From Lachnospiraceae bacterium (lineage in GTDB: Bacteria > Bacillota > Clostridia > Lachnospirales > Lachnospiraceae), in assembly GCA_024405115.1 (NCBI GenBank), contig JAKSPD010000017.1, forward strand, positions 1 through 36,506: a DNA stretch of 36,506 nt, written 5' to 3'. The notes beneath the pieces were generated by a model that was not told the origin of the DNA, searched no databases, and was given only the letters and a program-made list of their open reading frames with translations. How positions within the stretch are numbered: the first letter of the stretch is position 1; each line of letters begins with the position of its first letter. The position numbers and the translations under genes are program-made. This document shows positions 2,159 to 13,144 of the stretch, piece after piece.

Positions 2159-2546
2159 TCAGGACATCCCGCTGATGAAGCTGAAACGCCCGGTTACATA
2201 GGGCGGTTACAGGACAACACCATTTATATTTTTATATTTAAAACCGCGATTTTCACATGGTGATTTGCAGTGACCCCAGAAAGTTGGAAAAATCTAACAG
2301 TCTGGGGTCACTTCCATTTTCACGGTTTTTTAATTTGGTAAATATAATGTAAAGTTTTTGCCCGACATAAAGTAAAGCATGCAAAATGGTTTTTATGTTA
2401 AAGTATAAAATAAGCAGGCACGATAGCTGGTTAATCCGTAATCTGGCACTTTACGGCCCGTTTATCAAAATATTAAAACAGCAGGCTGGGATCTTCGGTA
2501 ATTCAATTTCCGGGATGTTCACCTCATGAGGTTTTATAAGGGAAGA
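2159..2546. other. Long AT-rich intergenic region
   Basis: No gene of credible length is visible here. The stretch holds the IS-end-like palindrome at 2270-2311, an outer AAAACCG/CGGTTTT pair around it, repeated TAAAG words between about 2340 and 2405, a TATAAAAT that could be a -10 element near 2404, and a short CCGTAA/TTACGG dyad at 2436-2456. It presumably contains the promoter for the anchored protein that follows, but no consensus -35 was found. Confidence 0.5.
2270..2311. repeat. Palindrome resembling two abutted IS3-family ends; possible terminator
   Basis: GTGACCCCAGA (2270-2280) and TCTGGGGTCAC (2301-2311) are perfect 11-base inverted repeats around a 20-base centre that itself carries GTT/AAC complementarity. 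The arm with its continuation, TGACCCCAGAAAGTTGGA, resembles terminal repeats that I know from IS3/IS150-group insertion sequences. There is no transposase between them, so this looks like a minimal remnant or mini-element. Followed shortly by a T-rich run, it may also end transcription from the PFL gene. Confidence 0.55.
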
Positions 2547-4445
2547 ATGAAAAAGAAAATTTCGATTATTGCAGGAACCATTCTGGTTCTTTTTATGGTT
2601 TATTTTTTCGGGCCGGGATTCAGGAAGGAAACGTCCTGTTTTGTGGAAGACTATTCCGTTTCTGAGGACGGCCGTGAGATCACGCTGCAGATGGGCGTGG
2701 CATCTTCAGTCGGCTTCATACGGAAAGTATCAGTGCACCGGCAGGGCGGAAACAGACTGGAACTTGACTGCTATTCGGCTTTTGGTGGGGTAAATGGGAG
2801 CATCGGCGCAAGACGCACTTTTACCGTGCCGCTTACTGCGGACACGGACGTGATAGCTTTATATAAAGGGAATTATCACTACGAGGATGTTCTGGTAAAG
2901 GACCTGGACGGAATCTGGCGTAGGGCCGGAGAGGATATTCCGGCGGGTGAAGCTTCTGAAAGAACTTTCCGCGGTACGGTAATAGAAATCGAAAATGGTT
3001 CCATGCTCGTAAGACCTGTGGACGGTTCATGGGAAATGACTTCGTCAGACGTTTTTAGGATTCCGCTTGAATTACCCATAGAAAACATGTCTTCCTCACC
3101 GGAGCCTGAAGTGGGGGACGGGATAGAGGTCACATACAGCGGGCGTGTTGAGGAACTCTACCCGGCGCTTCTTGCAGGTATCACCTCAGTCACAATAATC
3201 AAAAATGCACAGGAAGATGACGGCACTATAAAAACTGATGACGCTGGTACTTTGGGATCTGATGATGGAAAGGAGGCGGAGGGCGCATCTGAAGCAGTCC
3301 TTAATGAAACCAGTGCAGCAATTCCTTCCAAAGCACTTGATGAAAATGCTTCCGGGATCCTTACTGAAAGCACTGCCGAAAATGGTTCTGGTGCTTCTGC
3401 CGTAACATCTTCCGAAGCCTCTGGTAAAACATCTGCCGGCACTGCTGTCGGAGCCTCTACCGAGACTTATACCGGAACATCTACTGAAGCTTTTACCGGA
3501 ACATCTACAGGCTCCGCTGCTGATACTGACATGAACCTTGCTGAATTCAGCCCCAGTGAGATTCATGACCTTGTTTCGGCTGAAATCAGCGAGGATTTTG
3601 GAACCTTTACCGTAACTGACGAGGCTTCACTTAAGTGGCTTACGGAACTCCTTGGGTCCGCGGAAGGATTAAAGGGATGGCCCAACTGCCCGTATGAAAC
3701 CGTGATTTCGTTTAAGAGGGCGGACGGCACGGTGATTGAGATACAGCCTTCTACGGACAGCTGTACCAATTACAAAGTCGGTGATACATGGTACAGCTAC
3801 GAGGCAGTTGACAACCGTGAACTCTTTGCCCTCTTCGGGCTTAAAACCGAAGTTGGAAGGGTGACTGAAATCGAAAAACTCCCTCCGTATTCTTATAACG
3901 GAACTGACGGAATCGAAAAGGCCATTACGGACTACTTTATATCTGACAACATGTATTATCAGCCAGAAGGCTCCGTTTACATTCCGGCGTTCTGTATTTT
4001 TAAAAGTGAAAGCATCGGCGAAAGCCGTAAGAAGGATAAAAACGGGGCTGTAAAAGGCGATGTAAAGGTATACGGCAATTTCTGGACATTTAATTATTCA
4101 AAACAGGGCAGAACTCTCTTTTGTGAAAGCGGAGGCGAGGCACCCGGTGTGTTCTATCTCAAACAGACGGGAGAAAACGATTACGAGGTTACCGTGTTTG
4201 ACCAGGCCGGGGACGGAAGTCAGTACAGTGAGGTCATTAAAAGGATATGTGCAGGCAACAAGGCGCTTGAGGAACAGTACTTTAGTGCCTGCGATGCCGG
4301 AAAGGAGCCCTTAAAATCAAGACGTATGTGGTACATATATAACTATGTTCAGGATAATGACCTTGACATAGATTCCTATCAGGACTACGGGTGGGATCCG
4401 GTCATGCTTGTGAATCCCGATGACACGGCTGCATTTGAGGAATAG
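2547..4445 (+). CDS. Membrane-anchored multidomain protein of unknown function
   Basis: MKKKISIIAG followed by a hydrophobic stretch is a classic uncleaved signal anchor, so the bulk of the roughly 632-residue protein should lie outside the cytoplasm. The first extracellular part (to about residue 120) and a small beta-rich part (about 135-220, with FRGTVIEIENGSMLV and EPEVGDGIEVTYSG, reminiscent of DUF3221) are followed by a low-complexity Ala/Ser/Thr/Glu linker (about 220-330) with TGTSTEAFTGTSTG-like repeats, then a C-terminal globular part with aromatic residues. The ATG at 2547 has AAGGGAAG just upstream; an in-frame ATG at 2526 would add seven residues. Neither domain identifies an activity. 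No LPXTG sorting signal is seen. Confidence 0.75.
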   Translation: MKKKISIIAGTILVLFMVYFFGPGFRKETSCFVEDYSVSEDGREITLQMGVASSVGFIRKVSVHRQGGNRLELDCYSAFGGVNGSIGARRTFTVPLTADTDVIALYKGNYHYEDVLVKDLDGIWRRAGEDIPAGEASERTFRGTVIEIENGSMLVRPVDGSWEMTSSDVFRIPLELPIENMSSSPEPEVGDGIEVTYSGRVEELYPALLAGITSVTIIKNAQEDDGTIKTDDAGTLGSDDGKEAEGASEAVLNETSAAIPSKALDENASGILTESTAENGSGASAVTSSEASGKTSAGTAVGASTETYTGTSTEAFTGTSTGSAADTDMNLAEFSPSEIHDLVSAEISEDFGTFTVTDEASLKWLTELLGSAEGLKGWPNCPYETVISFKRADGTVIEIQPSTDSCTNYKVGDTWYSYEAVDNRELFALFGLKTEVGRVTEIEKLPPYSYNGTDGIEKAITDYFISDNMYYQPEGSVYIPAFCIFKSESIGESRKKDKNGAVKGDVKVYGNFWTFNYSKQGRTLFCESGGEAPGVFYLKQTGENDYEVTVFDQAGDGSQYSEVIKRICAGNKALEEQYFSACDAGKEPLKSRRMWYIYNYVQDNDLDIDSYQDYGWDPVMLVNPDDTAAFEE

Positions 4446-6275: not shown

Positions 6276-7352
6276 ATGGTAGATATCAGTACCCCAAAAG
6301 AGTTTCTCGAGGAGGCACTCCTGGCAGTTGACACACTGAAGGCGGATAAGACTGCGCAGACTGAGAATCAGGTCAGGCTCAAGGAAGCTGAGAGGGCATT
6401 AAACACCCTGAAAAAGACCATCGAGAAGGAAAAAGCCGATACGATCAAGGCCAGGAGAGGCGACATCGAATCGGAATATGCAAAGCAGCTTAAGGCCTCC
6501 GAATCAAATATCCAGAAGGCTGAAAGCGAGAGGACAAAAGCCAGGACAAAGGGTGTCAACGAAAGAATCACGGAAGCCCTCACACCGGCAAAGTCGGAAA
6601 TCAAGGATCTGAAGGAGCAGATTGCAACAGTGGTAAATGCGGCCGGACTTCCTGCTTTCTGCAGGACAAAGGCTTTCTATTCGCTGTTTATGGCAAAAGG
6701 CATCAAGGAAATAGTAGGCCTCGTGGTTTTGTTCGTGGCAGTACTTGTTGCGTTACCGCTGCTGATAACCTACTTCATCAAACTTCCATGGCTTAAGATC
6801 GTTATCTTCATTCTGATCGACGTACTGGCGGTTGTCATTTACATCCTGATTTATTCCGGAACGGTAGCGAAGAAGCAGGATGCGGTGAACCAGTGCCGTC
6901 TCATAGTTGACAGGATCAAGGCTGACGAGAAGGCCATTAAGCAGATCACCAAAAACATTAAGGGTGACAAGGATGACAGCACATATAACCTCGGAACGTT
7001 TGACGAGGAGATAGCAAAGCGTACGACCATCCGTGATGACATAACACAGAAGAGGCAGCAGGCCCTCAGCGAGTTTGACTACAGGACGGCTGACACGATA
7101 AAGGCTGAAATTGATTCACGCTATGCCGGAAAGCTTGCGGAGACCCAGGAAGCCTTCAACCAGTTAAGTGACAGTGGAAAGGCTCTCGCCGATAAGGTAA
7201 CCGCGGAGGAAATGGACATAAGCCGTTTCACGCAGTATGTGGGGGTAAAGAACCTCAACCATGAGAACCTGCAGAAGATGCTGGACCTTGTGACAGCAGG
7301 AGAGGCAGAGAGCGTGTCTGACGCGGCACTAAAAATAAACAGTAAACAGTAA
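6276..7352 (+). CDS. Two-TM coiled-coil membrane protein, unknown function
   Basis: A 358-residue protein not recognised as a named family. Residues 1-125 are highly charged with heptad-like character and should form a coiled coil; two hydrophobic segments at about 145-168 and 172-194, separated by a few residues, make a membrane hairpin; residues 200-320 are again charged and helical (KADEKAIKQITKNIK, RDDITQKRQQAL). Both coiled coils would be on the same side of the membrane, most likely the cytoplasm because no signal peptide is present. AAAAGGAGG eight bases before the ATG supports the start. It lies 19 bases after the HIT gene and 15 before asnS, so it is probably cotranscribed with both. 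A scaffolding or membrane-organising role is a guess. Confidence 0.8.
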   Translation: MVDISTPKEFLEEALLAVDTLKADKTAQTENQVRLKEAERALNTLKKTIEKEKADTIKARRGDIESEYAKQLKASESNIQKAESERTKARTKGVNERITEALTPAKSEIKDLKEQIATVVNAAGLPAFCRTKAFYSLFMAKGIKEIVGLVVLFVAVLVALPLLITYFIKLPWLKIVIFILIDVLAVVIYILIYSGTVAKKQDAVNQCRLIVDRIKADEKAIKQITKNIKGDKDDSTYNLGTFDEEIAKRTTIRDDITQKRQQALSEFDYRTADTIKAEIDSRYAGKLAETQEAFNQLSDSGKALADKVTAEEMDISRFTQYVGVKNLNHENLQKMLDLVTAGEAESVSDAALKINSKQ

Positions 7353-7367
7353 AGGAAATCAAAAGAA

Positions 7368-8765
7368 ATGGAAAAGTTAGTTACAGTCAGGGAACTTTTC
7401 GCTGACACGGAAAAATACATTGGGAAAGAAGTAAAAGTGGGCGGATGGATCCGTTCCGTACGTGATTCAAAGTCATTTGGATTCATTGTCATGAATGACG
7501 GAAGCTGTTTTGAGACACTTCAGATCGTATATCATGACAGGATGGAAAATTTTGCTGAAATCTCAAAGCTCAATGTAGCCACAAGCATTATCGTCCGCGG
7601 TATTCTTACAGCCACACCCGAGGCAAAGCAGCCTTTCGAGATCCAGGCTGATGAAATCACGGTTGAAGGTACTTCAACTCCCGATTATCCGCTTCAGAAA
7701 AAGCGTCATACCCTTGAGTACTTAAGGACGATGCCGCATCTCCGCCCCAGGACGAACACATTCATGGCCACATTCCGTGTAAGGAGCGTCCTTGCATATG
7801 CCATTCACAAGTTCTATCAGGAGAGAGGATTTGTCTATGTACATACACCGCTCATCACGGCTTCTGACTGTGAAGGCGCCGGCGAGATGTTCCAGGTAAC
7901 GACACTTGACCTTGACCGTATTGCAAAGGCAGCGGAGCAGGAAGTTGATTATACAAAGGACTTCTTCGGAAAGCCCACCTTCCTTACCGTATCAGGACAG
8001 CTTAACGGTGAGACATATGCAATGGCATTCAGGAACATTTACACATTCGGTCCCACGTTCCGTGCTGAGAATTCAAACACGACACGTCATGCGGCGGAGT
8101 TCTGGATGATCGAGCCCGAGATGGCATTTGCAGACCTTGACGACCTCATGAACATTGAGGAAGAAATGCTTAAGTACATCATAAAGTACGTCCTTGAGAA
8201 TGCGCCGGAAGAGATGAAGTTCTTTGATTCATTCGTGGAGAAAGGACTTATCGCAAGACTTGAGAGCATCATTGACAGCGACTTTGTCCGTCTTCCCTAT
8301 ACTGAGGCAATCGAGCTTCTTAAGGAGCACATCGGTGAGTTTGAGAATAACGACATCAAGTGGGGCATGGACCTCCAGTCAGAGCACGAGCGTTACCTTA
8401 CGGAAAAGATCTTCGGAAAGCCGGTATTCCTTACAGATTATCCGAAGGAAATCAAGGCCTTCTACATGAAGCAGAATCCTGACGGAAAGACGGTTGCGGC
8501 TGTTGACTGCCTGGTTCCCGGAGTAGGTGAGATCATGGGAGGAAGCCAGCGTGAGGATGATTATGATAAGCTTCTTGCACGTATGAATGAGCTGGGACTT
8601 GATCCGGAAGGATACGGTTTCTATCTTGACCTCCGCAAGTACGGTTCAGTACGCCATTCAGGTTTCGGACTTGGATTTGAACGTGCGCTCATGTACATAA
8701 CAGGCATGCAGAACATCCGTGACGTTCTTCCCTTCCCGAGAACAACAGGAACATGTGAACTTTAA
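7368..8765 (+). CDS. asnS: Asparagine--tRNA ligase
   Basis: A 465-residue class IIb aminoacyl-tRNA synthetase that charges tRNA-Asn. An N-terminal OB-fold (about 1-110, with [17 protein letters not shown]) binds the anticodon; the catalytic core shows motif 2 ([19 protein letters not shown]) and motif 3 ([15 protein letters not shown]), with the Asn-type ending [11 protein letters not shown]. Length is typical of bacterial AsnRS. AAGGAAATC lies upstream of the ATG. No T-box leader is present; the start is 15 bases after the preceding gene, so expression depends on an upstream promoter. A strong terminator follows. Confidence 0.98.
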
Positions 8766-8775
8766 TTAACGATTC

Positions 8776-8812
8776 GAAAGCAGCCTGAGAACATCAGACT
8801 GCTTTCATTTTT
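8776..8812 (+). terminator. Rho-independent terminator after asnS
   Basis: GAAAGCAG pairs with CTGCTTTC, continued inward by CTGA/TCAG after a one-base mismatch, and the stem is followed by ATTTTT. It ends the HIT-asnS unit just 15 bases before the next gene, so that gene needs readthrough or an internal promoter. Confidence 0.88.
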
Positions 8813-8826
8813 AAACGGAGAAACAG

Positions 8827-9909
8827 ATGAAATTCATGCATTTGAGTGACGTCCGTCTTGGACTGCATAATGAGAGCGGGCGCAGATGGGGTGAAGAACG
8901 TGTGGTTGAGGTTGCAGCTGACTTAAGGGCAGCTGTTTCGGATGCCGCAAAGGAAGGCACGGACCTCGTGCTTATTTCCGGAGGCCTTTTTGCGCATCGC
9001 CCTGTGAGCACGGAACTTGACGGGGCAAACCGTATATTTGCATCATTTCCTGAAACGGCCTTTGTGATAACCGCAGGGGAAAATGACCTTATAAAGCCAA
9101 GCAGTCCGGTCATCAGTTATAAGTGGGCGGACAATGTACATTACGTGCTCAACGGTAAGGCTGAAAAGATAAGCTTTCCTGCCTTCAATACCGCAGTGTA
9201 TGCACAGTCCGTCACATCTGACGCACATGATCCGGAGGCACTGATTGCCATAAGCGAAGGCGATGAGAAAAACGGGCACGACACGGTAAGGATAGCACTT
9301 TTGGAGGAACCTGACCCGGAAAAGGCAGCTGCCTTTGAGGGTTCGGGATTTTCCTACGTTGCCCTTGGCGGACAGGCTTCACATATGGAGCTTTCGGGTG
9401 GAAAGGCTGTTTATCCGGGTGGCTTTGAGCCGACCGGAATGACCGATACCGGCGCGCACGGTTATTACATGGGGGAAATAAACGAGACAACCGGAATGCT
9501 TGAAAGCGTGCGTTTTGTGCCGGCCGCCTCCGCCTCTTATGTGCCGTTAAAGGTAAAGGTGGGAGTGAACAATACCCCGGAGCAGGTTGCTGCCATGATT
9601 GAAAGCGAGATCAGGCGCCGCGGAATCACTAACATTTACAGGATCCGCATAACCGGCGAGAGAAAGCCTGAATACACGTTTGAGATGACTGACATTAAGT
9701 CAAGGTACAGGATAGCGGAGGTAAAATGCGAGGCTGAGCCCCAGTACGATTTTGAAGCCCTGTTTGAGGAACATCAGCAGGACATGATAGGGTATTTCAT
9801 CTCATCCCTCAGGAAGAATCATACTGAACTTTCAGACATCGATAAAACGGCCATGTTCTATGGAATAGACGCCCTCATCAAGACATCGTCCGGAAAGGAG
9901 CAGCCATGA
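8827..9909 (+). CDS. SbcD/YhaO-like metallophosphoesterase, catalytic residues lost
   Basis: A 360-residue protein whose order of segments follows the Lachnospiraceae SbcD/Mre11-like DNA-repair nuclease family: MKFMHLSDVRLG at the N-terminus, LVLISGGLF (about 47-55), AGENDLIKP (83-91), FSYVALGGQ (175-183). Each canonical metal-binding motif is changed: D-x-H is D8-V-R10, G-D is G52-G53, G-N-H-D is G84-E85-N86-D87, and G-H-x-H is G181-G182-Q-A184. A working di-metal centre is therefore unlikely. The C-terminal part (about 225-350) matches the capping and DNA-binding region of the family. GGAG lies upstream of the ATG. It overlaps the ATPase gene by ATGA, so the two are translationally coupled and probably form a complex. 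The frame is intact, so it is not a pseudogene by sequence. Confidence 0.82.
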   Translation: MKFMHLSDVRLGLHNESGRRWGEERVVEVAADLRAAVSDAAKEGTDLVLISGGLFAHRPVSTELDGANRIFASFPETAFVITAGENDLIKPSSPVISYKWADNVHYVLNGKAEKISFPAFNTAVYAQSVTSDAHDPEALIAISEGDEKNGHDTVRIALLEEPDPEKAAAFEGSGFSYVALGGQASHMELSGGKAVYPGGFEPTGMTDTGAHGYYMGEINETTGMLESVRFVPAASASYVPLKVKVGVNNTPEQVAAMIESEIRRRGITNIYRIRITGERKPEYTFEMTDIKSRYRIAEVKCEAEPQYDFEALFEEHQQDMIGYFISSLRKNHTELSDIDKTAMFYGIDALIKTSSGKEQP

Positions 9910-11714
9910 AGATACTGAGTGTACATATTGACGGCTTCGGGAAATTTACGAATCGCGACTTTGCCTTCAATGAAGGGACCACCGTAATCTACGGCCATAA
10001 CGAGGCCGGAAAATCGACCCTTCACGGCTTCATTGAGGCCATGCTCCTCGGACCCAACAAGAAAGCGCGCGGCTTTGCACGCTCCATATATGAAAGCATG
10101 GAGCCATGGGACCCGGCGGTTCCATACGGCGGTTCAATGCGTGTCTTAAGCGACGGGGAAATATTCCGGATTGAAAGGAACTTTAAAAAAGGAAAAGAAT
10201 CCCTTCAGGTGTTCAATGAGTCAAAAGGCTGTTACACGGCTTCCGCCGATGGAACCCTCAGCGCGATCTTAAAGGGACTTACCCCGAACGCCTGCAGGAA
10301 CACTATAAGCATCGGACAGCTTTCCGCAAAGACGGGTACGGCACTTCAGAGTGAATTAAAGGGTTATGTGGATAACGTCGGGAGCACGGCGAACCCTGAC
10401 CTGAGTGCGGATAGTGCCATTGATTTCCTGAAAAAGGAAAAGGAAAGCCTTGCCTCAGATATCCGCGAGGATGCGGCAAAGGAATATGCGGCCACATTAA
10501 GTAACATAAGGAAGATTGAAAATGAAATCGATGTTCCGGAGAATGACAACCATATCCTTTATTATGAGGAGGAGCGTAAGAAGGTAAGCGACAGCGCGAG
10601 TGTTCTTGAAAACGAGGTGAATGAGACGGAAGCCCGTATCGAGCATGCGGACAAGATCCTGCTCGACAATCACATCTACTCATCTGAGGACATAGAAAAG
10701 CTTGACCAGAAGGCTGACGGACTGTACCGTGAGTATAAGGAGAGAAAGAAAAAGGCGGCCAACACCCTCCGCACCGTCGGAATCATTGTATCGTCCATAC
10801 TGCTGGCAGCGGGCATCGCGGGGGCAGTATACTACTACAAAACTTCCGGATGGCTTATGATTGTGGCAGCGGCAGTGGTGGCGCTTGCACTTCTGATACT
10901 GTGCATAGTACTCGGTGCATCGGCGAGAGCCGCACTCAAGGAGAAGGAAAAAGAAATCCTCAGTTTCATGGAGGGGCGTAACGGCGACACGGCGGTCAAT
11001 GATGAGACCGTGGCTAACCTTAAACGCTGCATACACAGCTATGACGGGCTCCTTAATGAAAGGGAGCGTGACCGCGGCGTGGTTTCGGTTTTCCGTGAGA
11101 GATATTCAGCTGTTTTGAAGGAACTTACGGAGGTTACAGGAAAGCTTGAGGAGCAGCAGAAAATCCGTTTCAACGTGGAAGCACGCCTGATGGAGGAAAA
11201 CAGCCTTAGGAACCATGCTTCTGAGCTTCGTGACGTGATAGCGGAAAATAACCGCCTTAAGGAACAGATGGATGCCATTGACATCGCAATCGACACAATC
11301 GGGGACCTGAGCTTCACAATCAAGGACAGGCTCGGAACTTACCTGAATTTTGAGGCATCGCGTGCCCTTAAGAGCCTGACAGACGGAAGATACCACAGCA
11401 TGGACATCGGCACAGGAAATGACATATCGCTCAACTCAAAACTGGGAATGATAAGCGTGAATGATATTTCCGCAGGTACCATGGACCAGGTATATCTGGC
11501 AGTAAGGATGGCGGCCGCCCGCTTCATGATGGGCGGTGAGGATGAGCTTCCGCTTATCTTCGATGACAGCTTTGCCCTTTATGATGACGGAAGGATGCAG
11601 AGCGCCGTCAATTTCATAGCGGATGACTATAAGGGACAGATCCTGATTTTTACATGCCATACACGTGAGGCAGCAGCCTTAAGCGGGAAGGAAATCAATC
11701 TTATAGAACTGTAA
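9906..11714 (+). CDS. YhaN/Rad50-like AAA ATPase with membrane hairpin
   Basis: A 602-residue SMC-like ATPase. Walker A is GHNEAGKST (residues 30-38); the signature motif ISAGTMDQVYLAVRMA, Walker B LPLIFDDSFALYD and switch FTCHTRE are near the C-terminus, so the ATPase site looks complete. Charged coiled-coil arms flank two hydrophobic segments (about 291-311 and 315-340) in place of the Rad50 zinc hook, an arrangement typical of YhaN-type proteins that tethers the arm tip to the membrane. Known relatives partner with an SbcD/YhaO-type nuclease, and the gene just upstream is the expected partner but with a degenerate active site. It is shorter than most SbcC proteins. A terminator follows. 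Confidence 0.88.
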   Translation: MKILSVHIDGFGKFTNRDFAFNEGTTVIYGHNEAGKSTLHGFIEAMLLGPNKKARGFARSIYESMEPWDPAVPYGGSMRVLSDGEIFRIERNFKKGKESLQVFNESKGCYTASADGTLSAILKGLTPNACRNTISIGQLSAKTGTALQSELKGYVDNVGSTANPDLSADSAIDFLKKEKESLASDIREDAAKEYAATLSNIRKIENEIDVPENDNHILYYEEERKKVSDSASVLENEVNETEARIEHADKILLDNHIYSSEDIEKLDQKADGLYREYKERKKKAANTLRTVGIIVSSILLAAGIAGAVYYYKTSGWLMIVAAAVVALALLILCIVLGASARAALKEKEKEILSFMEGRNGDTAVNDETVANLKRCIHSYDGLLNERERDRGVVSVFRERYSAVLKELTEVTGKLEEQQKIRFNVEARLMEENSLRNHASELRDVIAENNRLKEQMDAIDIAIDTIGDLSFTIKDRLGTYLNFEASRALKSLTDGRYHSMDIGTGNDISLNSKLGMISVNDISAGTMDQVYLAVRMAAARFMMGGEDELPLIFDDSFALYDDGRMQSAVNFIADDYKGQILIFTCHTREAAALSGKEINLIEL

Positions 11715-11744
11715 CCGTCCGGAACGGATTAGTGAAATGTAACA

Positions 11745-11804
11745 GTGCACATCATGATTAATTGGAAGTAATCACAAAATCAATCATGATGTGCACGTTT
11801 TATT
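11745..11804 (+). terminator. Rho-independent terminator with a 15-bp perfect stem
   Basis: GTGCACATCATGATT (11745-11759) and its exact complement (11782-11796) enclose 22 bases and are followed by GTTTTATTT. The stem is unusually long and uninterrupted. It separates the ATPase from the glycogen genes. Confidence 0.85.
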
Positions 11805-11833
11805 TGTACAAAAAAGACAGTTTGTGTTATAAT
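11804..11833 (+). promoter_or_regulatory. Promoter of the glgC operon
   Basis: TATAAT at 11828-11833 is preceded by TG one base upstream, giving an extended -10. A weak -35 candidate, TTGTAC, lies 18 bases before it. The -10 is about 36 bases from the glgC start codon. Confidence 0.72.
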
Positions 11834-11869
11834 GAAACAAATATTTTTACCATTTAAGGAAGTGATATT

Positions 11870-13144
11870 TTGCATAAAAAAGAAATGATCGCAATGCTCC
11901 TCGCAGGAGGGCAGGGAAGCAGACTGGGCGTGCTCACTGAGAAGGTGGCCAAGCCTGCAGTTGCTTTTGGCGGCAAATACAGAATAATCGATTTCCCGCT
12001 TTCAAACTGCATTAATTCAGGAATAGACACCGTTGGCGTGCTCACGCAGTATCAGCCCTTAAGACTGAATGCTCACATCGGCATAGGAATCCCGTGGGAC
12101 CTTGACCGTAACTACGGCGGTGTTACGGTGCTCCCGCCTCATGAGACGATAGAGGGCTCTGACTGGTACTCAGGTACAGCAAATGCAATCTGCCAGAACA
12201 TGGAGTATATGGATGAGTTTGATCCGGAGTATGTCCTGATCCTTTCAGGTGATCATATCTACAAGATGGATTACGAGGTGATGCTCGAATACCATAAGGC
12301 GTCAAATGCTGATTTCACGATTGCGTGCATGCCCGTACCCATGGAGGAGGCTTCACGTTTCGGACTGGCTGTCACAGATGGCTCAGGCCGTATAACCGAG
12401 TTCCAGGAGAAGCCCGCGGAGCCGAAGTCCAACCTCGCGTCCATGGGGATATATATCTTCACATACAGTGAACTGAAAAAGGCCCTTATGGAGCTTAAGG
12501 ACCAGCCGGGATGCGATTTCGGAAAGCATGTCATTCCTTACATGAAGGATTCCGGAAAGAGGATCTTTGCGTATGAGTTCAATGATTACTGGAAGGACGT
12601 GGGAACATTAAGCTCATACTGGCAGACAAACATGGAGCTTGTCGACATCGTCCCGAACTTCAACCTTTATGAGGAGTTCTGGAAGATCTACACTAAGAAC
12701 GGCCGCGTTGAAGGCCAGTATCTTGGGGAAAACTGTGAAGTGTCCCGTTCGATAATAGGGGCGGGATGTGAAATATACGGAAAGGTCTGCGGCTCTGTCC
12801 TTTCAGACAGTGTCACGGTCGAAGATGGTGCGGAAGTCATTGACTCGATAGTCATGAGCAGCGTGCATATAGGAAGGGGAGCAAGGCTCTATAAGTGCAT
12901 CATCTCTGACAACTGCCAGATAGGTGAGGGCGCCGTGCTTGGAACCGGAGAATACGCGGAGTCCATGTATGATAAGAAGGTTTACTGTTCTGATCTTGTA
13001 ACAATAGCTGAAAACTCAGTCATACCGGCAGGGGTTACCGTGGGTGTGAATACGGCCATCATCGGCGTCACAACACCGGAGGACTATCCTGATGGAAGAC
13101 TTCCTTCCGGAGGATTCATTGTGAAGGAGGGCGGTAAATCATGA
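11870..13144 (+). CDS. glgC: Glucose-1-phosphate adenylyltransferase (ADP-glucose pyrophosphorylase), catalytic subunit
   Basis: Makes ADP-glucose from ATP and glucose 1-phosphate, the committed step of bacterial glycogen synthesis. The 424-residue product has the nucleotidyltransferase signature [13 protein letters not shown], the segments WYSGTANA and [12 protein letters not shown] that carry catalytic and metal-binding residues, FQEKP, and a C-terminal left-handed beta helix. The start is a TTG at 11870, supported by AAGGAAGTGAT eight bases upstream; the in-frame ATG at 11885 has only an A-rich leader. The last four bases overlap glgD (ATGA), so the two subunits are coupled, as in other Firmicutes where GlgC and GlgD form a heterotetramer. 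Confidence 0.97.

Follow-up and report, generated by a model that had tools for sequence, protein, structure and literature searches.

Loss of the cleavage site in a Mre11-Rad50 (YhaO-YhaN) type gene pair kept under selection in Lachnospiraceae

Introduction

Can a gene pair of the Mre11-Rad50 type be kept by selection once its nuclease subunit has lost the residues that cut DNA, and what would such a pair still do? The question is raised by a locus in a 36,506-nucleotide stretch of DNA from a Lachnospiraceae bacterium (assembly GCA_024405115.1, contig JAKSPD010000017.1; the whole stretch is referred to as the window), in which two overlapping frames on the + strand, 8827-9909 (360 amino acids, aa) and 9906-11714 (602 aa), encode an SbcD/YhaO-like protein followed by a YhaN/Rad50-like ATPase. 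Work on complexes of this type has centred on the nuclease, and what they do apart from cutting is usually visible only in engineered mutants. A sequence-only reading of the window had proposed that the metal-binding positions of the first protein are replaced, that the second retains its ATPase motifs together with a membrane hairpin, and that the pair is under selection although cleavage is probably lost.

Loss of the active site in the nuclease-like subunit

Homology of the 360-aa protein to Mre11/SbcD extends over the phosphoesterase domain. As a single sequence it matches the solved archaeal Mre11 1s8e (E = 4.2e-5), and the profile of its relatives finds solved Mre11 3auz as its best match (E = 1e-18, profile positions 1-253), with the active-site motifs of the two lining up; the protein reaches the curated cut-off neither of Pfam Metallophos (E 0.11) nor of TIGR00619 sbcd. 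The 602-aa ATPase matches the solved Rad50 3qku by profile (E = 1.2e-18). The overlap of the two frames described by the sequence-only reading is a 4-base one, and the two genes are adjacent in all 24 carriers of the window's genus (hereafter the genus), where, with start codons chosen by script, 15 pairs overlap by 4 bases, eight are 1-16 bases apart and one is 104 bases apart.

The active site was read at eight positions, which we take to be, in the numbering of P. furiosus Mre11, D8, H10, D49, N84, H85, H173, H206 and H208. Aligned with relatives whose site is intact, the window protein carries D R G E N E G A at these positions and keeps one of the eight (motifs I to V in Table 1), so that the claimed replacement of the metal positions holds. 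It is also a property of the lineage: the genus orthologues keep 1-2 of the eight positions in 24 cases out of 24, whereas five of five outgroups, which are relatives from the same family or order, keep all eight. D8 is present in every genus carrier, D49 in two and H208 in one, and the other five positions are kept in none; the alignment of motif IV is uncertain in G005, G017 and G021, which have an insertion there. A two-metal site with its catalytic histidine is therefore absent from the window protein and from all 24 genus members. True SbcD, found six times in the genus, served as a control: all six proteins retain D-x-H, GNHD and GHxH. In E. coli SbcCD the H84Q change gives a nuclease-deficient form with about 15% less ATPase activity (PMC6265447, excerpt), so a single substitution in the motif suffices to stop cutting.

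The loss is concentrated on the ligands. Among 130 relatives with eight of eight positions, 26 alignment columns are at least 97% constant, comprising the eight active-site columns and 18 others. In the genus the ancestral residue is found in 14% of active-site cells against 83% at the 18 other invariant columns (Mann-Whitney p = 7e-4); the corresponding figures are 24% against 98% in a second genus (that of G207, described below) and 37% against 92% in 14 single representatives with a dead site. The columns of H173 and H208 now belong to the least conserved few per cent of the genus. Among six regions of the protein the C-terminal segment of residues 301-350 is the most conserved, and by analogy with Mre11 it would be the part that binds the ATPase coil; it is top-conserved in the live sister clade as well, so conservation has not shifted there.

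Selection on the gene pair

Of the 25 genus genomes, 24 have the nuclease-like gene; the exception is 53% complete, and no in-frame stop occurs in any of the 24. Across the twelve closest genus pairs the ratio of nonsynonymous to synonymous substitution (dN/dS, Nei-Gojobori) is roughly 0.075-0.31 for the dead subunit; the ATPase range is 0.13-0.31. These are not the values of a neutral gene; a neutral ratio had been named beforehand as the outcome that would speak for decay, and it was not found. Site-specific loss combined with low dN/dS indicates that the pair is not decaying, and loss of the cleavage site under selection for the pair, as originally suggested, is well supported.

The ATPase partner and its hydrophobic hairpin

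The Walker A, signature, Walker B and switch motifs of the window ATPase were all located (Table 1), as the sequence-only reading had stated. The acidic pair of its Walker B is Asp-Asp, like that of most outgroups (DD, one DE). Walker A, signature and Walker B are intact in 23 of 23 readable genus ATPases, that of G007 being cut by a contig end.

Two 19-residue hydrophobic windows start at residues 290 and 317 of the window ATPase, with mean hydropathy of 2.2 and 3.3. Such windows lie mid-protein in all 24 genus ATPases (two in 23, three in one). In the alignment the middle of the ATPase, where Rad50 carries its zinc hook, is this hydrophobic hairpin, and the window protein has no CxxC. Among representatives of the wider family in which at least 480 residues are covered, two windows occur in 100 of 116 with a live site (14 have one, two have none) and in 17 of 17 non-canonical ones, that is, those keeping fewer than eight positions; G150 and G225 fall outside the latter count by their coverage of fewer than 480 residues, and both show two windows. 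Since the hairpin is usual in nuclease-competent relatives, it did not arise with nuclease loss. Membrane tethering by the hairpin, another part of the earlier proposal, is plausible from the hydropathy profile, but it is a trait of the ATPase subfamily in general.

Table 1. Features of the gene pair and its upstream region in the window
Feature	Position	Strand	Remark
asnS, upstream neighbour of the pair	7368..8765	+	
Hairpin followed by T-run, terminator-like, between asnS and the pair	8776..8806	+	-17 kcal/mol, z = -4.6
SbcD/YhaO-like protein, metal site lost (pseudo-nuclease subunit)	8827..9909	+	360 aa
Motif I: D8-V-R10 instead of D-x-H (D8 kept, H10 lost)	8848..8856	+	H10 kept in 0/24 of genus
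Motif II: G52-G53 instead of G-D (D49 equivalent lost)	8980..8985	+	Asp kept in 2/24 of genus
Motif III: G84-E85-N86-D87 instead of G-N-H-D (ligand Asn and catalytic His lost)	9076..9087	+	both kept in 0/24 of genus
Motif IV: E160 instead of ligand His (H173 equivalent)	9304..9306	+	His kept in 0/24 of genus
Motif V: G181-G182-Q-A184 instead of G-H-x-H	9367..9378	+	H206 kept in 0/24, H208 in 1/24 of genus
C-terminal segment, residues 301-350	9727..9876	+	most conserved of six regions in genus
ATGA stop/start codon overlap	9906..9909	+	4 bases
YhaN/Rad50-like ABC (ATP-binding cassette) type ATPase, motifs intact	9906..11714	+	602 aa
Walker A GHNEAGKST, residues 30-38	9993..10019	+	
Two hydrophobic windows, residues 290-335, mid-coil, likely membrane hairpin	10773..10910	+	from hydropathy only
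ABC signature SAGTMDQ, residues 522-528	11469..11489	+	
Walker B and D-loop LIFDDSFALYDDG, residues 550-562	11553..11591	+	
Switch histidine FTCH, His 585	11649..11660	+	

Recurrent loss across the family

A profile search of 299 genomes of the family, nearly one per genus, gave a match in 196. The motifs were read in 144 representatives, and four more (G000, G005, G029 and G031) stand in the genus alignment; the other 48 matches, weaker or partial, were left unread. Eight of eight positions are kept by 125 of the 144 representatives, seven by four, and 0 to 5 by 15; in three of the four with seven, the catalytic His85 has become Arg. On a 173-row tree built without the motif columns, parsimony counts 14 changes when intact sites are set against all others and 10 when the division is drawn at six or more positions; dead rows are interspersed with live ones, and several of them sit on long, poorly supported branches, which makes the number of changes uncertain. 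A single origin is rejected: holding 20 dead rows together against 39 live ones gave p-AU (approximately unbiased test) = 0.0006 on a 59-row quick tree.

At order level a match was found in 28 of 246 genomes, eight of which had already been read. Eighteen of the other 20 keep eight of eight, and one genus of another family keeps 6 and 3 of 8. The rows concerned, L304 (G408) and L302 (G498) with 3 and 6 of 8, are partial sites outside the family and represent further loss. Within the family, in four representatives (G242, G310, G150 and G121; rows L133, L146, L167 and L176), the nuclease-like protein lies in a longer open frame of 658-1003 aa, possibly by fusion with a neighbour.

The genus of G207 (rows L216 and L258-L275) is a second one in which the dead form is general. 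A match was found in 24 of its 26 genomes; among these, 20 carriers were read for the nuclease subunit, all keeping 1-3 of 8 positions, and 19 for the ATPase. All 19 ATPases have lost the ABC signature S-x-G-T, two have lost Walker A and two the first Walker B Asp, and nine have Gly at the second acid; the two hydrophobic windows are retained in the 19. Median dN/dS at dS < 1.5 is 0.11 for the nuclease subunit (14 pairs, 0.05-0.34) and 0.18 for the ATPase (11 pairs, 0.06-0.23), so that both genes are still constrained, and their frames are open. Loss of the ATPase signature with pairing and hairpin staying suggests that selection keeps a scaffold rather than catalysis. In the genus of G313, three species keep 1/8 and one 6/8, and Walker A is intact in all four. 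Outside the window's genus, a broken ATPase motif occurs in 7 of 14 rows with a dead nuclease and in 7 of 106 others (Fisher p = 1.3e-4, uncorrected for kinship; 29 of 149 rows with the motif region missing or gapped were left out).

Proposed function of the pair

We consider it reasonably probable that the pair forms a membrane-anchored, ATP-switched DNA-holding complex of the Mre11-Rad50 (YhaO-YhaN) type with a pseudo-enzyme as its nuclease subunit. The dead subunit would still dimerise, bind DNA and attach to the base of the ATPase coil. ATP binding would close the ATPase heads over DNA and hydrolysis would open them, as in Rad50, with no strand being cut. The hydrophobic hairpin mid-coil, in the place of the zinc hook of Rad50, would insert into the membrane and anchor the complex there, which may then hold or mark DNA, perhaps its ends, with end processing left to AddAB; a role in repair would fit such a complex. 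A broader proposal, advanced tentatively, is that pairs of this family have repeatedly been converted into non-cutting membrane-anchored scaffolds, the cleavage site going first (some ten times or more) and the signature of some ATPases next, with pairing, hairpin and selection persisting.

Known systems offer partial likenesses. Like SbcCD/Mre11-Rad50, the window pair sets the gene of a Mre11-like phosphoesterase beside that of a Rad50-like ABC ATPase, and it has profile matches to both; it differs in its lost site, its short ATPase (602 aa) and the hairpin where Rad50 has a zinc hook. In YhaO-YhaN (SbcE) of Bacillus, likened here by names and not by sequences, a putative exonuclease gene stands beside one for an ATPase resembling SMC (structural maintenance of chromosomes) proteins; Bacillus YhaO is annotated as a putative exonuclease, and the window protein, judged by its motifs, cannot be one. 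Eukaryotic DNA polymerases retain a Mre11-like fold as a catalytically inactive subunit (PMC4996933, excerpt), and their B-subunits resemble the window protein in keeping that phosphodiesterase fold inactive; partner and pathway are different. Human MRN stimulates ATM without the nuclease activity of Mre11 and needs ATP binding and the coiled coil to do so (PMC3642328, excerpt), which is likewise a nuclease-independent role; there the site exists and was shown to be dispensable by engineered mutants. In the titles and abstract openings of the open-licence literature searched, no description of a naturally nuclease-dead SbcD/YhaO or of a membrane-hairpin Rad50 was found.

Several observations weigh against the proposed complex or soften the figures that favour it. 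Three of the 18 non-ligand invariant columns (residues 126, 161 and 168) have been lost in the genus too, two of them close to where H173 was lost. Of 276 genus pairs, 181 have a defined dS, and their median dN/dS is 0.26 (dead subunit) and 0.33 (ATPase). The dead subunit evolves faster than asnS, for which six pairs give a dN/dS of 0.036-0.094. All these ratios are rough, as dS is high, at 0.9-2.1 among the closest genus pairs and near saturation in many pairs. The link between dead nuclease and broken ATPase comprises three independent pairs on supported branches and nine on all branches, too small a number to establish it, and lineages with a dead ATPase make the ATP-switch step less convincing as a general rule. 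The hairpin is a reading of hydropathy, and DNA binding, complex formation and membrane insertion are proposed from sequence.

Should the broader proposal be right, cutting would not be what these complexes are chiefly for, even in lineages that still do it. The lineages described are natural separation-of-function forms that arose several times, one genus having an intact ATPase and another an ATPase that lacks the signature; they offer natural material for asking what a non-cutting complex does and whether short hairpin forms hold DNA at the membrane.

Alternative explanations

The pair may instead have left DNA metabolism, its dead subunit serving as a binding or regulatory module and its membrane ATPase acting on the envelope, a protein or another ligand. 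We regard this as unlikely, though several observations speak for it: hairpin windows are found in all genus members, several nuclease-dead lineages have lost ATPase motifs too, and the immediate neighbours of the pair in the window are asnS and glgC-glgD. The window has 11 sites resembling that of LexA (at most one mismatch), where chance alone would give 15.5; none lies between asnS and the pair, and the nearest match, with one mismatch, is inside asnS. Against a departure from DNA stand the ordinary Mre11 site in 125 of 144 family representatives, the repair gene mfd three genes downstream of the pair in the window, and reports from Bacillus: yhaO and yhaN of B. pumilus are listed under the LexA/SOS regulon (PMC3896406, excerpt), and SbcE (YhaN) of B. 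subtilis is called a double-strand-break repair protein (PMC4205851, excerpt).

A division of labour, in which cutting has passed to another nuclease (SbcCD or AddAB) and the dead pair serves to regulate or recruit it, is improbable. Candidate partners exist: AddA is strongly matched in every one of the 25 genus genomes (above cut-off in 21), and true SbcD with intact motifs is present in six. Yet those six are the only ones among the 25 with SbcD above cut-off, the window's own genome (78.5% complete) not being among them, where a gene missing from an incomplete genome is no proof of absence. In a hand-picked sample, true SbcD occurs in 34 of 37 genomes with eight of eight positions but in only 12 of 19 with fewer (one of the 12 a marginal partial match); the association has a Fisher p of 0.022, or 0.11 with a stricter class, uncorrected for kinship, and gives no signal in independent pairs. 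A takeover of cutting by SbcCD specifically finds no support, true SbcD being rarer, not commoner, among the non-canonical genomes.

That cutting continues at a metal site rebuilt from other ligands is very improbable, judging from column conservation, by which no such site is apparent. D8 is kept throughout the genus, and H57, which never varies in the genus and corresponds mostly to Arg in relatives with a live site, is the sole new invariant candidate; E28 and E63 differ from the sister clade and are Glu in about two thirds of live relatives, hence not new. A single new histidine is no substitute for the missing ligands, and the positions that those ligands occupied are free to vary from species to species, with 10 different residues at H173 and 12 at H208. 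Decay of the pair on its way to loss, to which the long branches of several single dead representatives might point, is scarcely credible and already contradicted for both genera, given the absence of internal stops in the 24 genus carriers, low dN/dS, equal constraint in the second genus and the high retention of the other invariant columns in all three dead sets.

Genomic neighbourhood

The gene asnS lies directly upstream of the pair in 23 of 24 genomes of the genus, the remaining one beginning at a contig end. Among the outgroups, G031 has it adjacent to the pair, G039 about 0.5 kb off and G029 1.9 kb off; in the wider family, the short upstream stretch examined contains it in 47 live representatives out of 125 and in 6 non-canonical ones out of 19. 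As some live orthologues share asnS, the dead form occupies the same place as they do, and the linkage is not family-wide. Downstream of the pair, glgC-glgD follows in 12 genus genomes and pth in nine; three regions ended too early. The terminator-like hairpin between asnS and the pair, which a pattern scan did not flag, implies that the pair is either read through or has a promoter of its own; a promoter scan of 8600-11900 gave no match between asnS and the pair.

An anti-phage defence system was considered as the setting of the pair and rejected in view of its carriage by 24 of 25 genus genomes, its linkage to asnS in 23 and the lack of any PADLOC match for the nuclease-like protein. For the ATPase PADLOC returned 23 partial matches, the best being LmuB (2.7e-9) and AriA (2.9e-9).

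Upstream of asnS, at 6276-7352 in the window, lies a gene for a 358-aa protein that by eye is charged and helical with a hydrophobic stretch. It has no Pfam match below E = 0.01, shows weak matches to the MG_279/MG_280 and ZorA models, and has a same-strand match upstream of asnS in 19 of 24 genus genomes, counting that of the window. Farther upstream, at 2526-4445, a 639-aa open frame matches nothing in Pfam at E = 1e-5 or in NCBIfam at E = 1.

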